Assembly (NCBI RefSeq): GCF_000502875.1
Contig: NZ_AYWX01000002.1
Span: 294,725 to 358,724 of the forward strand
Length of the DNA: 64,000 nucleotides
Direction of reading: 5' to 3'
Source of the DNA: Mesorhizobium sp. L2C084A000
Lineage (GTDB): Bacteria > Pseudomonadota > Alphaproteobacteria > Rhizobiales > Rhizobiaceae
Shown here: positions 6,607-29,184 of the stretch, piece after piece
Numbering within the stretch: the first letter of the stretch is position 1
Layout: each line of letters begins with the position of its first letter
The notes under the pieces: generated by a model
Seen by the model: the letters and a program-made list of their open reading frames with translations, nothing else
The model's database searches: none
Told to the model about the DNA's origin: nothing
Translations under genes and position numbers: made by a program

Positions 6607-8379
6607 ATGAGTAAGGCAGCAAACGGGCTCTCTTTCGTCGAGTTTCAGTCGCCGACTCTGGTCGCAACGGCGCCCGAGGGCAGCGAATGGATTCACGAGA
6701 TCAAGTACGATGGCTACCGCACTGAGCTGATCATGCAGCGTGGCAAAGCACGGGCCTTCACGCGCCGTGGCTACGACTGGTCGCATCGATACCGCCGGAT
6801 AGTTGAAGCAGCGGCGGGCTTGCCGGTGAGGACCGCGATCATCGATGGGGAGGCTGTCGTTCTCGGCGACACCGGCCTTCCGGATTACCAAGCCCTGGAA
6901 AGAGAGTTGGGCAATCCAGATTCCGCGAGACTCATCTTTTATGCGTTCGACCTGCTGCACCTTAACGGGCGCGATCTTCGGCAACTGCCATTGGTGAAGC
7001 GCAAGGCAGCCCTGGAGAGGCTACTGGAGAACACCGCGCCGACACTGACCTATGCCGAACATCTGGAGGTAAGCGGCAAGGATGTGTTTCAACATGCCTG
7101 CCGGATGGGGTTGGAGGGGATCGTATCCAAGCGCGTCGATGCGACCTACGGCTCGGGGGTTCAGACCAGTTGGTTGAAGGTAAAGTGCATCAAGAGCGAC
7201 ACCTTCCCTATCGTGGCTTTCGTAGAGAAACTCGGTGCTCACCCGCGCCGCATTGCATCGCTTTATATCGGGCGCCGCGAGGGCAACCGACTGCTCTATG
7301 CCGGGAAGGCTCGCAGCGGGTACACCTTGAGCGCTGCGAAACTTGTGCGAGAGCGGCTTGACCCGCTGATCATCAGCAAGTCGCCTTTGTCAGAGCCGAT
7401 TGTGAAGCCGAAAGCGACTTGGGTGAAACCACACGTGCTGGCCGAGGTCCAGTTCAGCGGCGTCACCGATCGCGGGGTGCTGCGCGAGGCAGTGTTCAAG
7501 GGTTTGCGCGAAGACCTCGTGCCAATCCCGGCCAAGCCTCAAGCGCCATCAAAGCGACGCGGGCCAACCCGGAAACATGGCGTTCCCAGTGAAAACATCC
7601 TGCAACTGCTGCCAGACGCTGTCTCGCCCTCCAAGGACGAGCTTGCGCGTTACTGGGAGAGGGTTGCGGATCATGCCCTGGTTCATCTCGGCCACAGACC
7701 GCTGAAGCTGGTCCGCCATGCTCATGGCGCGACCTTCTATCACAAAGGCGCACTGCCGCAGATCCCGGCGGCAGTGCATCAATTGCGGCTGCAGAAGCGC
7801 GAGGGTGGCGAAGGTGTGCGCGTGTGGGTGGACGACCTTGCCGGTTTGCTGGGACTGGTCGAGATGGATGCGGTAGAGCTGCATCCCTGGAACGCCACCG
7901 TCGACGATATCGAACATGCCGACCGTATTGTTCTGGACCTTGACCCCGGCGAGGGCGTGGAGTGGGAGCAAGTCATCGAGGCCGCACTGGCGCTCCGCGA
8001 CATCCTGGAAGCGGAAGGGCTGGAGAGCTGGCCGAAGGTTACTGGCGGCAAAGGCATTCACCTGATGGTCCCGCTGGAGAGCAAGATCACGCACGACAGC
8101 GGCCGCCTCTTGGCCAGGTCCTTCGCCAATCGGCTCGCTGAAGCGCATCCGGACCGCTATCTACTTTCGGCCTCGCCGTCGGCTCGAACAGGCCGCATCT
8201 TCATTGATTACCTCCGCAATGGTCGGGGCAGCACTGCGGTGGGCGCCTTCTCGCCACGGGCGCGCCGCGGTTTTCCAATCGCCCATCCGGTGACCTGGAG
8301 CCAGGTTGAGGCAGCCATCCGTCCAGATGCCTTCACGATCGACCGTCCGTTCAGGGCGGCCCTCAGAAAAGCTGCGTGA
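6607..8379 (+). CDS. ligD: LigD-type DNA ligase-polymerase lacking the phosphoesterase domain
   Basis: A 590-residue non-homologous end-joining enzyme. Residues about 1-300 are the ATP-dependent ligase, with the nucleotidyl-accepting lysine in motif I at K33 (EIKYDGYR), EGIVSKR, and the OB-fold (LYIGRREGNRLLYAGKARSG). Residues about 325-590 are the primase-like polymerase with the metal site in VLDLDPGEG, the TGGKGIHLMVPL segment and RIFIDYLRNGRG. The third LigD domain, the 3'-phosphoesterase, is missing at both ends, so this is the two-domain Lig-Pol form. The start follows a CGGAGG Shine-Dalgarno. It converges on exonuclease III. Ku, its usual partner, is not in the window but may lie left of it, next to the ligase end at 3-230. 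Confidence 0.93.
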   Translation: MSKAANGLSFVEFQSPTLVATAPEGSEWIHEIKYDGYRTELIMQRGKARAFTRRGYDWSHRYRRIVEAAAGLPVRTAIIDGEAVVLGDTGLPDYQALERELGNPDSARLIFYAFDLLHLNGRDLRQLPLVKRKAALERLLENTAPTLTYAEHLEVSGKDVFQHACRMGLEGIVSKRVDATYGSGVQTSWLKVKCIKSDTFPIVAFVEKLGAHPRRIASLYIGRREGNRLLYAGKARSGYTLSAAKLVRERLDPLIISKSPLSEPIVKPKATWVKPHVLAEVQFSGVTDRGVLREAVFKGLREDLVPIPAKPQAPSKRRGPTRKHGVPSENILQLLPDAVSPSKDELARYWERVADHALVHLGHRPLKLVRHAHGATFYHKGALPQIPAAVHQLRLQKREGGEGVRVWVDDLAGLLGLVEMDAVELHPWNATVDDIEHADRIVLDLDPGEGVEWEQVIEAALALRDILEAEGLESWPKVTGGKGIHLMVPLESKITHDSGRLLARSFANRLAEAHPDRYLLSASPSARTGRIFIDYLRNGRGSTAVGAFSPRARRGFPIAHPVTWSQVEAAIRPDAFTIDRPFRAALRKAA

Positions 8380-25477: not shown

Positions 25478-25852
25478 ATGTCTATCTTTAACAACACCAC
25501 TATGAAGGCCGACAATGCGGAAGCCGCCGATACGGCACCCAGCGTCGACGACAGCACCCCAACCCGGAAGCCGCGCGAGAAGTCCGTGGTGACCGTCGCG
25601 GTGACGGTCAAGAAGGCAAAGGACGAAGCGCCCGCAGCGCCTACCAAAACCGACATCGTCCTCAAGAAGCTGAAGTCGGCCAAAGGCGCTACAATCCAAA
25701 CCCTGATGGATGCGACGGGATGGCAGGCGCATTCGGTGCGGGGTTTCCTCTCCGGTACCGTCAAGAAGAAGCTTGGCCACGAACTGCTCAGCGACACCGG
25801 CAAGGACGGACAAAGGCGGTACCGCATTGCCGAGGCGAAGACCGCCGGTTGA
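25478..25852 (+). CDS. DUF3489 domain-containing protein
   Basis: A 124-residue basic protein. The N terminus is low-complexity, rich in Ala, Lys and Pro; residues about 55-118 are the DUF3489 domain, a small winged-helix-like fold (TKTDIVLKKLKSAKGATIQT, DATGWQAHSVRGFLSGTVKK, GQRRYRIA). Proteins of this family usually precede a DUF2924 gene and a serine recombinase in alphaproteobacteria, as here. DNA binding is likely from the fold but not shown. It starts with a good GGAG site and is followed after five bases by the DUF2924 gene. Confidence 0.88.
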   Translation: MSIFNNTTMKADNAEAADTAPSVDDSTPTRKPREKSVVTVAVTVKKAKDEAPAAPTKTDIVLKKLKSAKGATIQTLMDATGWQAHSVRGFLSGTVKKKLGHELLSDTGKDGQRRYRIAEAKTAG

Positions 25853-25857
25853 CCTAG

Positions 25858-26364
25858 ATGCGCAAAAGACAGGATCTGGATAGTGAGATCGCCGGGATTG
25901 GCGGTCTCACGCGTGATGAACTCACGGCAGCATGGAAAAAGGCCTATGGCTGCCCGCCGCCCAAAGGGGTCAAACGTGGGTTGCTTGAACGGTCGGCCGC
26001 CTGGCATCTCCAGGCCAAGCGATTGGGTGGTTTACCTTCGACCGTCAAGAAAACACTCGGAGCAGGCAACGCGCGCCAGTCCAACGTAAAGGCTGTCCAA
26101 CCGAGCAATACTGGACCGGATCGCGAGGACGGTGTTCCGTCGGTCCGAGCAGCGTCATCGGATAAGGCACTAACGTCGCCGCCACGATCCCTTCCGCCAA
26201 GAATCGGCTCCCGTCTGGTGCGGGAATGGAATGGCCGGATGCACGTTATCGAAGTGGTCTATGACGGCTTCGTGCTCGATGGCAAGACGTACGGATCGCT
26301 GTCGGCTGTCGCCCGCCGCATTACCGGCGCCCATTGGTCTGGCCCGAGGTTCTTTGGCCTATGA
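25858..26364 (+). CDS. DUF2924 domain-containing protein
   Basis: A 168-residue basic protein. The N-terminal part has GLTRDELTAAWKKAYGCPPP and a helix that continues SAAWHLQAKRLGG; the C-terminal part is the conserved RLVREWNGRMHVIEVVYDGF then GKTYGSLSAVARRITGAHW. This family almost always lies directly before a large serine recombinase; here its stop overlaps the recombinase start (ATGA). It may help the recombinase as a DNA-binding factor, which is inference from context. Confidence 0.88.
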   Translation: MRKRQDLDSEIAGIGGLTRDELTAAWKKAYGCPPPKGVKRGLLERSAAWHLQAKRLGGLPSTVKKTLGAGNARQSNVKAVQPSNTGPDREDGVPSVRAASSDKALTSPPRSLPPRIGSRLVREWNGRMHVIEVVYDGFVLDGKTYGSLSAVARRITGAHWSGPRFFGL

Positions 26365-28049
26365 CAGCAATCCCTCGCCTCAACTGCGCGATCTACACTC
26401 GCAAATCGACCGAAGAGGGATTGGAGCAGGAATTCAATTCGCTCGATGCCCAGCGCGAAGCGTGCGCGGCCTTCATCGCATCGCAGGTCGGTCTTGGCTG
26501 GAAGTTGATGCCAAGCCACTACGATGACGGCGGGATTTCGGGCGGCACGATGGAGCGCCCTGCCCTGCAGCGTCTCCTACAGGACATCCGGGACAAAGAG
26601 GTCGATGTGGTGGTCGTCTACAAGATCGACCGCCTCACCCGTTCGCTGATGGATTTTTGCAAGATCGTCGAGATCTTCGATGCCAGCTCCGTCTCGTTTG
26701 TCTCGGTCACGCAGCAGTTCAACACCACAACCTCAATGGGCAGGCTCACGCTCAACGTGCTCTTGTCCTTCGCCCAGTTCGAGCGAGAGGTTACAGCAGA
26801 GCGTATCCGCGACAAGATCGCGGCCTCGAAGAAGAAAGGCATGTGGATGGGTGGCGTGGTGCCCCTGGGCTATCGTGTCGAGTACCGCAAGCTGGTGATT
26901 GACGAAACCGAGGCACAAACAGTCAGACACCTGTTCGCCCGCTATCTCACCCTGAGGTCAGTGCGCGACCTTGTCGATGAGGCTGCGAGCGACGGGGTTT
27001 CCACACGATCGCGACACCTCATAGACGGATCAGTTGCAGTTACCATGCCGTTTGGTCGCGGCAACCTCTACCACCTGCTTTCGAACCCGGTCTACGTCGG
27101 CAAGATCAGGCACAAGGATCAGGTCTACGATGGAGAGCACAAGCCAATTGTCACGTCTGCCACGTTCGACGAGGCCCAGGCACTACTTGCCTCTCAGGCG
27201 CCGCGGCGGCGAAGCGAGTCCAATGTCACGCAAGCCCATTTGCTCACCGGTCTGCTCTTTGATGAAGCGGGCGAGAAATTGCGATCGGTTCATGCCAATA
27301 AGCAAGGTGTTCGCTACCGATACTATGTCTCAAAGCAGTTCGTCGATGAGCGCAGGAAAGGTTCCGAGGGCTGGCGTCTTCCGGCACCCGCACTTGAGTC
27401 AGTTGTTGAGCATCGCCTCAATCGGATTCTCAGTGATCAAGCCCAACTGTCTGATTGGATTCGGCAATGGGCAGACTCTGGCGAAATCCAGGCAGCGATG
27501 CGGCGAGTTGACGAGATGCGGTCGTGTTGGGCTTCAGGCACTACGGATGCGAAGCGATCTCTCCTCCAAAAGATCGTTCACAGGATCACCCTCAAGCTTG
27601 GTTTATTGACCATCGAACTGGATCGCCGCTCGCTATCGGAATTGCTTCTCGACCGAAAGCTGCCACCCAACGATAGCGCCCAAGTAACTTCCATCGAATG
27701 TCCAATCGGAATGAAGCGTCGCGGCGTCGAAACGCGGATCGTGCTTACCAACGGATCCAATATCAACCGGGCACCCGATGCCGCCTTGATCAACCTTCTG
27801 CGCCGCGCCCACCTATATCTCGGCCAACTTACAGACGGAGTCGGTCGCAGCCTTACCGACGTTGCCATGCTCAACGGCACCGATACATCCGAGGTCAGCC
27901 GCCTATTGCCCTTCGCTTTCCTCGTTCCAAAAATTGCGGCCAACATCGTTGCAGGTGATCAACCTGTTGAACTAACGGCGCACCGGCTGTCCCGATTGTC
28001 GGACCTCCCCCTTACTTGGACTGACCAGGCTGCACTCCTGGGCTTCTAA
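26361..28049 (+). CDS. Large serine recombinase
   Basis: A 562-residue site-specific recombinase. The N-terminal resolvase/invertase catalytic domain starts CAIYTRKSTEEGLEQEF with the nucleophile Ser16, continues through YDDGGISGGTMERPALQRLL and VYKIDRLTRSL. A recombinase domain (about 160-290, LYHLLSNPVYVGKIRHKDQV) and a zinc-ribbon-like region follow, although the usual four cysteines are not obvious. The rest is a coiled/helical tail. The start is fixed by ATGA overlap with DUF2924. It probably integrates or excises a mobile element; the gene ends 213 bases from a tRNA 3' end, which may mark the element border. Confidence 0.93.
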   Translation: MTAIPRLNCAIYTRKSTEEGLEQEFNSLDAQREACAAFIASQVGLGWKLMPSHYDDGGISGGTMERPALQRLLQDIRDKEVDVVVVYKIDRLTRSLMDFCKIVEIFDASSVSFVSVTQQFNTTTSMGRLTLNVLLSFAQFEREVTAERIRDKIAASKKKGMWMGGVVPLGYRVEYRKLVIDETEAQTVRHLFARYLTLRSVRDLVDEAASDGVSTRSRHLIDGSVAVTMPFGRGNLYHLLSNPVYVGKIRHKDQVYDGEHKPIVTSATFDEAQALLASQAPRRRSESNVTQAHLLTGLLFDEAGEKLRSVHANKQGVRYRYYVSKQFVDERRKGSEGWRLPAPALESVVEHRLNRILSDQAQLSDWIRQWADSGEIQAAMRRVDEMRSCWASGTTDAKRSLLQKIVHRITLKLGLLTIELDRRSLSELLLDRKLPPNDSAQVTSIECPIGMKRRGVETRIVLTNGSNINRAPDAALINLLRRAHLYLGQLTDGVGRSLTDVAMLNGTDTSEVSRLLPFAFLVPKIAANIVAGDQPVELTAHRLSRLSDLPLTWTDQAALLGF

Positions 28050-28262
28050 CCATCCGGCGAGCATCTCGCTGACCAGTCGACCATCGCTTTGGCAAACACT
28101 TGGCTACGGAATTCGCCCGACAGAGACGGACGACTTAAAAGTCGGGTGTTTTGCGTTTACCGCGGCGTCTCAGCCAAGTGTTGCCCACTACTCGGCGCTA
28201 ACCCACGGAAATGTCGGAGGTATTCTGAGACGGTCGAAACCCCGAAAAACGAGGGGACTGGA

Positions 28263-28338
28263 TGGTGGGCCCGGAGGGACTCGAACCCCCAACCAAGCGG
28301 TTATGAGCCGCCGGCTCTAACCATTGAGCTACAGGCCC
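28263..28338 (-). tRNA. tRNA-Ile (CAU anticodon, lysidine-type)
   Basis: The minus strand folds into a complete cloverleaf: acceptor GGGCCTG paired with CGGGCCC (one G-T), a D-arm AGCTCAATGGTTAGAGC, anticodon loop CTCATAA, and the T-arm with GGTTCGAGTCC. The encoded 3' CCA occupies 28263-28265. The CAU anticodon with the CGGCTCATAACCGCTTGG arm, as in E. coli ileX/Y, identifies the minor isoleucine tRNA that reads AUA after lysidine modification, not tRNA-Met. Its 3' end faces the recombinase gene, which suits an integration site. Confidence 0.93.
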
Positions 28339-28473
28339 CACGCGGGCTGGATTAATGTTTTTCGCATCGCGGCACAAGGCTTTCCCTACGGGCTTCCGCA
28401 GATCGCCCAAATCAACCCATAATCGCGCTCTACGCGACCCCTTGCGACTTGATCGCAGACCAAGGAGATTTTC

Positions 28474-29184
28474 ATGACCAGACATCTTTTGCCTCTCGCG
28501 CTCGCCGCTGCAATCGCTTTTCCGGCGATGGCTGGAGCCGCCGATCTGCCGACGCCGCCCCGCATCATCGTGTCGGGCGAAGGCGAAGCAACCGTAGCCC
28601 CCGATCTGGCGGTCCTGACGCTGAGCGTCATGCGCGAGGCCAAGACCGCGCGCGCCGCGCTCGATGCCAACAATGACGCCATGGCCGCCGTGATCGCGGC
28701 GATGAAGTCCGCCGGCATCAAGGACCGCGATCTGCAGACCGCTGGCATCCAGATCAACCCGCGCTACAACTACACCAACAAGCCGGACGGCAGCCAGGAA
28801 GCCGAACTCGTCGCCTATCAGGTGACCAACACGCTTTCGGTGCGGGTGCGCGACGTCGACAAGACAGGCGAGGTCCTCGACAAGGCGGTGTCGCTGGGCG
28901 TCAACCAGGGCGGCGGCATTGCCTTCACCAACGACAACCCGGCAGCCACGGTCACCGAGGCGCGAAAGAAGGCGGTCGCCGACGCCATGGCCAAGGCCAA
29001 GACGCTGGCCGAAGCCGCCGGCGTCAGCCTCGGCCGGGTGCTCGAGATCACAGACCAGAACATCAGGCCGGCGCCGATGCCGATCAATGCCAAAGCCTTC
29101 GATGCCGCGGCCGGCGCGGCTCCGGTACAAGCCGGTGAGAACGCCTACAATGTGCAGGTCACCGTCACCTTCGAACTGAAATAA
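28474..29184 (+). CDS. SIMPL domain-containing periplasmic protein (DUF541)
   Basis: A 236-residue exported protein with signal peptide (LLPLALAAAIAFPAMAGA) and an AAGGAG Shine-Dalgarno. The SIMPL domain shows PRIIVSGEGEATVAPDLAVL, then RDLQTAGIQINPRYNY and VADAMAKAKTLAEAAGVSLG. Homologues such as E. coli YggE are periplasmic proteins linked to oxidative stress. A strong terminator follows at 29246-29280. The gene is the first of the GC-rich section right of the tRNA. Confidence 0.92.
   Translation: MTRHLLPLALAAAIAFPAMAGAADLPTPPRIIVSGEGEATVAPDLAVLTLSVMREAKTARAALDANNDAMAAVIAAMKSAGIKDRDLQTAGIQINPRYNYTNKPDGSQEAELVAYQVTNTLSVRVRDVDKTGEVLDKAVSLGVNQGGGIAFTNDNPAATVTEARKKAVADAMAKAKTLAEAAGVSLGRVLEITDQNIRPAPMPINAKAFDAAAGAAPVQAGENAYNVQVTVTFELK

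Follow-up and report, generated by a model that had tools for sequence, protein, structure and literature searches.

Integration into transfer RNA (tRNA) genes is usually credited to an enzyme family other than the serine recombinases, and the serine integrases of TP901-1, A118, phiC31 and Bxb1 target protein genes. Here, we analyze a stretch of 64,000 nucleotides from Mesorhizobium sp. L2C084A000 (the window; C2:294725-358724 of genome G000, 6.65 Mb in 77 contigs; handles in G, C and L denote genomes, contigs and loci), in which genes for a DUF3489 protein, a DUF2924 protein and a large serine recombinase form an operon beside the 3′ end of a tRNA(CAU) gene. In the available excerpts of the Islander paper (PMC4383910), only tyrosine integrases are described as known to target tRNA-encoding DNA (tDNA). 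The excerpts of an actinobacterial survey (PMC3218068) call serine integration into tRNA genes rare, naming phiRSM1 at tRNA-Ser and mycobacterial AICEs (actinomycete integrative and conjugative elements) at tRNA-Leu, and those on Dehalococcoides islands (DsiB; PMC3146451) report a serine recombinase at ssrA. We consider it highly probable that the present operon is the integration module of a 66.2-kb island, which the recombinase would have inserted at the tip of the tRNA by the mechanism proposed below; both ends, the empty site, the core, the arm motif and a clade-wide link to tRNAs were established by sequence comparison. The recombinase belongs to a widespread family at tRNA 3′ ends with a 6-bp core.

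The recombinase resembles the integrases of TP901-1, A118, phiC31 and Bxb1 in its Resolvase and Recombinase domains, short core and symmetric arms; unlike them, it lies at a tRNA 3′ end, carries a ParB-like C-terminal helix-turn-helix (HTH) module and is linked to DUF2924 and DUF3489. With Islander-type tyrosine islands the element shares integration at a tRNA 3′ end, a tRNA left whole, an integrase gene beside the tRNA and tandem stacking, but those islands have a longer tRNA fragment in common with their target, whereas here a serine recombinase and 6 bp at the CCA end are found. As far as the excerpts describe them, phiRSM1, the mycobacterial AICEs and DsiB likewise place a serine recombinase at a tRNA-like gene; each has one reported target and is set apart here by its description, and the Dehalococcoides excerpts give a 20-bp repeat and insertion at the T-loop rather than a 6-bp core. 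The large serine recombinase of Wolbachia phage WO is 33% identical over 98–99% of the protein and, according to an excerpt of PMC11376236, has a DUF2924 neighbor. Judging from the excerpts of PMC8627217, members of the present family may be among the six treated there. The word tRNA is absent from the main text of a large recombinase survey (PMC10083194), and the titles and abstract openings of the open-access matches listed nowhere describe this family.

The positions of the operon, the tRNA and the right border are given in Table 1. A preceding sequence-only reading had described the operon and a recombinase gene ending 213 bases from a tRNA whose 3′ end faces it, and had taken this point for a likely island border; the observation is confirmed, with Pfam recognizing all three proteins and exactly 213 bp between the recombinase stop codon and the tRNA 3′ end, and the border interpretation is supported by what follows; the finding reaches further than was stated. 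ARAGORN labels the tRNA as tRNA-Met(cat); from its loop, we take it to be a lysidine-type tRNA-Ile(CAU). Most relatives that lack a close recombinase are homologous to the right flank from the tRNA 3′ end (28262 or 28263) onwards, and in relatives with the recombinase at this tRNA the homology continues through recombinase, tRNA and further. The sequence-only reading had held that an alignment across 28050-28262 in a genome lacking the recombinase would speak against the border. Such an alignment occurs in one genome (G050; 90% over 28078-28700), which keeps the element's right-end sequence and is therefore read as a decayed copy, despite the lack of a close recombinase there.

Table 1 Features of the island's right part and its target, in window positions
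Feature	Position	Strand	Support or remark
Right 28.3 kb of the island	1-28268		Left end conserved elsewhere, empty site, lower guanine-cytosine (GC) content
DUF3489 protein, 124 aa	25478-25852	+	Pfam 4.4e-24
DUF2924 protein, 168 aa	25858-26364	+	Pfam 3.7e-35
Large serine recombinase, 562 aa	26361-28049	+	Pfam Resolvase 2.4e-39, Recombinase 2e-13
Element right-end motif GACTGGA	28256-28262	+	Immediately adjacent to the tRNA 3′ end
attR core TGGTGG, the last six tRNA nucleotides (CCACCA)	28263-28268	+	Repeated at the left end, C2:256806-256811
tRNA(CAU) gene, insertion target	28263-28338	-	ARAGORN, Rfam RF00005

Since the left end at C2:256806 is conserved in other genomes, the island spans C2:256806-322992, and 37.9 kb of it (C2:256806-294724) lie to the left of the window, where the sequence-only reading had expected the other border. 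TGGTGG (C2:256806) marks the exact point where homology shifts from the right ends of tyrosine-integrase elements to the left ends of serine elements in G097 and G059; the corresponding serine islands measure 64.4 kb and 63.1 kb, and the same left end is present in G020, G033 and others. The 191 bases after the left core have matches in 12 of 144 genus genomes including our own, at 12 places outside it. The whole left end stands behind differing flanks at eight of these places (seven TGGTGG, one CGGTGG); of the remaining four, three read TGGTGA (one by eye), matching the six-letter tRNA-Arg(CCT) end of L091, and the fourth reads otherwise.

Relatives also provide the empty site. When we joined the 306 bp through the left core to the 400 bp right of the right core, the joined flanks aligned end to end with G014 (96.5%, 3 gaps) and also with G056 (94.5%), G057, G038, G033 and G021 (range ~85–94.5%). 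This unbroken alignment, a comparison that the sequence-only reading had called for, bears out the proposal that the DNA to the left of the tRNA is integrated; the site in these six genomes is free of the serine element, though not of every element. With defined ends, an empty site and a whole tRNA, the locus is a tRNA-targeting genomic island, while it falls outside the Islander definition, having a serine recombinase and a 6-bp far-end block instead of a tyrosine integrase and a tDNA fragment. The change in base composition at the border also held (GC 0.582 in the island against 0.630 in the 5.9 kb right of the tRNA), and GC lies below the right flank in all 11 islands that we could delimit. 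The left side is not gene-poor, as had been thought: from the island's left end on, 70 open reading frames (ORFs) of at least 90 aa were called, many with Pfam matches, the last one crossing the tRNA.

The ends of this and related elements follow a common rule, a GACTG-like motif, TGGYnn and then N6-CAGTC-N4-GCGAACC-RGTCTC, left ends within the genus reading TGGTGG, N6, CAGTC, N4, GCGAACC, R, GTCTC. Comparing the 60 bp before the tRNA in 74 loci at many tRNAs (n = 70 after removal of four near-copies), we found GACT seven bases before the CCA end in 21 loci, against 0–2 at each of 35 other offsets; among single bases, G at -7 (47/70), A at -6 (49/70), T at -4 (50/70) and G at -3 (48/70) prevail. 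GACTG and CAGTC are reverse complements centered on core letters 5 and 6. Serine recombinases use a 2-bp crossover, which this symmetry would suit and with which a 6-bp core between symmetric arms is consistent.

We searched for left ends in two ways. An exact pattern (the island's own six tRNA letters, N6, CAGTC) was present in 9 of 24 islands with 10 matches in total, while seven other spacings together gave 7. A scored search of 23 islands found left ends in 10, with scores of 15–18 of 18, a next best site of at most 11 (apart from a tandem second left end in L091) and an opposite-strand control of at most 12 in 22 of the 23; the exact-pattern search is the cleaner test, because its matches had been seen before the scored search was written. 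Altogether, left ends were located in 11 of 24 islands including G000, giving sizes of 15.6–66.2 kb. Three of the 11 islands lie at the tRNA from which the rule had been derived; among 21 further islands the rule located eight more left ends, at tRNA-Arg, Ser, Gln, Thr and Phe genes. In searches that demanded five or six of the six core letters, element and tRNA have exactly 6 bp in common in 10 of the 11 islands and 10 bp in the remaining one. Repeats of the tRNA 3′ end of at least 12 bp occur in 2 of 23 islands searched. Neither was accepted as a border: the one in L108 is part of a tRNA-Ser-like sequence, and the 43-bp repeat of L152 lies 64 kb away, with a serine left end at 36.9 kb.

To see how far the association with tRNAs extends, we aligned six recombinases; the alignment matched at least 575 relatives among GTDB genomes, and we retained the best 80. 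In this set, a tRNA lies within 500 bp in 55 of the 71 loci with enough downstream sequence, facing the gene with its 3′ end in all 55, and the upstream part searched contains a tRNA in none of the 80 loci. A wider set adds 30 class-wide and five genus loci. We call recombinases with the C-terminal ParB-like HTH module long and those without it short. In genomes, a tRNA lies no more than 500 bp from 65 of 83 long recombinases, again always with the 3′ end facing the gene (65/65); these tRNAs comprise 11 isotypes and 20 anticodons, or 12 isotypes when eight genus loci are added. None of 15 short recombinases has a near tRNA (Fisher's p = 5.7e-9 against long, with rows that are related to one another), and two of six recombinases of unclear type, which were set aside, do. 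The short rows number 15 after removal of the broken or cut-off long rows L107, L112 and L124; eight long rows with too little downstream sequence were left out, and L049 was dropped as its catalytic domain was not found. L111, which has two recombinase frames in one locus, the second beside tRNA-Gln, is tRNA-adjacent in the wider set only, apparently for that reason, and L107 shows the reverse with its broken frame.

In the tree, ten short class-set rows fall within one 16-row clade (Shimodaira–Hasegawa-like approximate likelihood ratio test 97) that also holds three unclear-type rows, two viral rows and L199, none of the 16 with a near tRNA; L211 and L214, of unclear type and with a tRNA, are its sisters. 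Overall, rows with and without a tRNA are mixed (34 changes against 50.5 when shuffled), so we claim neither a single origin nor a single loss. The short relatives L045-L048 and L187-L197 have DUF2924, lack the ParB-like module and have no near tRNA.

The sequence-only reading had further suggested that both small proteins act together with the recombinase. Their linkage argues for this and is its sole support: upstream of long recombinases, DUF2924 is present in 74 of 75 and DUF3489 in 66 of 75, and upstream of short ones in 14 of 14 and 0 of 14, respectively (n = 14 after the same removal of mislabelled rows; 17 and 2 before). On viral contigs, long recombinases have DUF2924 in 62 of 62 cases and DUF3489 in 29 of 62. 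A role of DUF3489 as the determinant of tRNA choice finds no support, as adjacency is similar with and without it: 4/20 and 4/21 in viral long recombinases, 42/53 and 4/4 in the GTDB set, and 6/8 and 2/3 in the class set. One genome (G446, the record of L148) has 16 DUF2924 matches.

The relatives on viral contigs were scanned for end-motif sites, with an upstream control added. Of 58 contigs with at least 300 bp downstream, 10 carry such a site, attP-like, in the first 900 bp past the recombinase gene, with 10 matches in 95 kb downstream against 2 in 313 kb upstream; the same scan of genomes gave sites at 4 of 103 loci (4 matches in 177 kb downstream against 2 in 382 kb upstream). Seven of the 10 viral sites also have GACT seven bases before the core and are read as whole attP sites. 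A first scan restricted to TGG had given four matches scoring at least 13 per strand and seemed uninformative; with the restriction lifted, five opposite-strand matches emerged as attP-like sites inverted relative to the recombinase in related contigs (L384, L397, L403, L414 and L423; core TGGCGG).

Several observations count against our interpretation. Close to a fifth of long recombinases in genomes (18/83) have no tRNA within 500 bp; a second serine element follows in two of these and a fragment of tRNA-Gln in one, which leaves the others unexplained. Of 49 long recombinases on viral contigs, only 8 have a facing tRNA within 500 bp and one further has a non-facing one, although such contigs probably often lack the bacterial flank. 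L199 has the module by profile, yet sits in the short clade without a tRNA, making the module an imperfect marker, and among long recombinases the presence of DUF3489 fails to follow tRNA adjacency. In 13 of 24 islands, the stretch searched yielded no left end, and the opposite-strand control reached 16 in one of 23 (L159). Moreover, excision and present mobility of the island are things that we infer.

Two other explanations of the border compete with insertion by the serine recombinase. A search of our own genome for the tRNA 3′ end (18-mer, at most 3 mismatches) found an exact 16-bp copy on the same strand at C2:216579, 106.4 kb left of the tRNA; it is the sole other 16-letter match in the genome, in agreement with the earlier remark that the window holds no copy. 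The expected direct repeat left of the window does exist, and one could imagine a 106-kb tyrosine-recombinase element bounded by it, with the serine recombinase as cargo beside the border. A C-terminal fragment of a tyrosine integrase (PF00589) does lie inside, at C2:256353-256589, and recombinase right ends away from this tRNA lose homology at the 16-bp block. We nevertheless regard this as very unlikely. The fragment sits ~217 bp left of C2:256806, at the right end of an element of its own; the sequence ending there directly abuts the same tRNA in G014 and G056 (93%, ~306 bp), a phage integrase gene stands beside that right end in G014, G056, G057 and G038 (4 of 9 relatives scanned), from C2:256806 on the sequence is the serine left end of G097 and G059, also of G020 and G033, and the same recombinase family occurs beside many other tRNAs. 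With the tyrosine integrase broken and a serine left end stacked against another element's right end, the 16-bp repeat is rejected as the island's border; it belongs to an older tyrosine-integrase element, and the core of the island is 6 bp. Alternatively, the recombinase might integrate elsewhere by rules of its own and owe its tRNA adjacency to island hotspots. The tRNA(CAU) site is such a hotspot, many unlike sequences directly abutting the tRNA in 29 genus loci inspected; each of 12 genus genomes, selected because they contain the recombinase or remnants of it, has at least three matches to the 15-letter tRNA end (at most 1 mismatch) with unlike sequences behind them, and the tRNA-less fifth of long recombinases would fit too. 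A by-product of hotspots would, however, hardly have a fixed orientation in 65 of 65 cases within 500 bp, be missing from all 15 short DUF2924-linked relatives, show a right-end motif touching the CCA end across isotypes, or have left-end cores that match each island's own tRNA (in a search requiring at least 5/6 letters). It is strongly disfavoured and, in our judgement, scarcely tenable.

Another question, compatible with integration by the serine recombinase, is how the element is transferred, and whether, instead of a plain genomic island, it is a prophage or phage satellite. A Pfam scan of 40 of the 70 ORFs revealed transporters, an amidohydrolase, chemotaxis genes, a LigD-type ligase (a ligase-polymerase gene at window 6607-8379), regulators and a terminase. 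Shared among the 11 delimited islands are the recombinase (11), a ParB-DNA-methylase protein (10), its 148-aa neighbor (9) and a large terminase cluster (5), with PHROGs matches for the terminase (5.9e-104) and the methylase (2.1e-135). These genes and the occurrence of recombinase relatives on viral contigs would suit a phage-derived element, but the 40 ORFs scanned include no relaxase, type IV secretion, portal, capsid or tail gene, nor were such genes found by Pfam in the operon and its three neighbors, and the 15.6-kb island L127 belongs to none of the methylase, neighbor and terminase clusters. A prophage or satellite is therefore a possibility that we entertain, with the balance tilted towards a plain island.

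For insertion by the serine recombinase, we propose that the enzyme inserts a circular form of the element into the chromosome, crossing over at the final two positions of the tRNA's acceptor stem, the predicted dinucleotide being GG at 28267-28268 (tRNA positions 71-72). The predicted attP, or circle junction, would read GACTGGA TGGTGG TGCAGGCAGTC, and only six nucleotides would be common to element and target, with the symmetric arms GACTG and CAGTC on either side of the crossover. The right end of the element, TGGT beside GACTGGA, would supply the last four tRNA nucleotides, ACCA, so that the tRNA stays whole. The ParB-like HTH module, which the tRNA-linked clade usually has and short relatives lack, is likely an additional DNA-reading part; the DUF3489 (winged-helix) and DUF2924 (RAMA-like) proteins are likely DNA-binding partners, and one or the other perhaps switches the reaction towards excision.

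Whether the clade as a whole is a serine integrase system specialized on the CCA end of tRNAs is, to us, an even call. It would have a six-letter address (the last two acceptor-stem letters, the discriminator and CCA), a switchable central dinucleotide (GG, GA, TG and GC were seen), a ParB-like reading aid and at least 12 isotypes as targets, with one integrase scaffold moved among isotypes across Alpha- and Betaproteobacteria and phages. In its available excerpts, a leading survey of tRNA islands (PMC4383910) is restricted to tyrosine integrases and seeks tRNA fragments; given a 6-bp core, islands of the present family would be missed or mis-bounded by it, a risk illustrated here by the 16-bp repeat that was nearly taken as the border. 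The end rule allows such islands to be delimited in genomes, the attP-attB pairs that it predicts at conserved tRNA sites could be used as tools for integration, and the steering of a serine recombinase to different tRNAs, by the ParB-like domain or by DUF2924 and DUF3489, becomes testable.

The proteins themselves fit these roles to varying degrees. The recombinase ORF spans 26334-28049, with an ATG at 26361, and the order of its domains (PF00239, residues 19-171, then PF07508, residues 191-286) makes it by sequence a member of the large serine recombinases; the catalytic domain matches the TP901-1 integrase (4.9e-25), and the closest named relative by recombinase among the best 80 matches kept is from Mesorhizobium (89%). 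Y-T-R-K-S and D-R-L-T-R are invariant across six aligned long recombinases, the former being YTRKS in the window's recombinase, and we take them to be the catalytic serine and arginine motifs. A zinc-ribbon domain is common, though not universal, in large serine recombinases; this one has no zinc-ribbon match in Pfam and five scattered cysteines in the whole protein. Its C-terminal HTH module is modelled with a predicted local distance difference test score (pLDDT) of 92 and structurally matches ParB, Noc, Spo0J and SopB with a probability near 1, an E-value of 0.05 or worse and a low template-modelling score, low because the alignment is only partial.

DUF3489 is predicted from its model (pLDDT 89; three helices and a beta hairpin) to be a winged HTH DNA-binding protein. 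Its best Foldseek matches, with E-values of 0.014 or worse and none at 0.001, are presumably mostly winged-helix proteins, and a profile search of solved structures gave MecI as a weak best match (0.0047). DUF2924 partly matches the RAMA DNA-binding domain, according to an excerpt of PMC11342252. As RdfS is described, in an excerpt of PMC11963761, as the winged-helix directionality factor of a Mesorhizobium tyrosine system, DUF3489 is by analogy a candidate directionality or accessory factor.

Finally, several elements appear in stacks. Left of the island, C2:216579-256806 is a 40-kb element with the broken tyrosine integrase, lying between an older element and the serine island (L085, L084, L082). 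The older element, C2:187069-216594 (L221, L222, L085), has a mutated core at its left end (TGGTAGGCCCGGAAGG) preceded by a serine-type right end, ACTGGA, and its right end GACGATAA at the exact 16-bp core; its cargo includes acyl-CoA dehydrogenase- and CoA-transferase-like genes (names by eye). In G064:C165:94681-110064 (L067, L068), one array contains two serine-recombinase right ends separated by 15.4 kb, and behind each come the 16-bp tRNA-end block and the left end of another element. Upstream of L091 (G435:C51), serine elements stand in tandem at a single tRNA-Arg: left ends of the serine type occur 41.4 and 61.5 kb away from it, and each follows a right end of that type. Upstream of L159, G450:C2 bears on the opposite strand a left-end motif with the core of its own tRNA-Gln (score 16), perhaps an inverted or second element.

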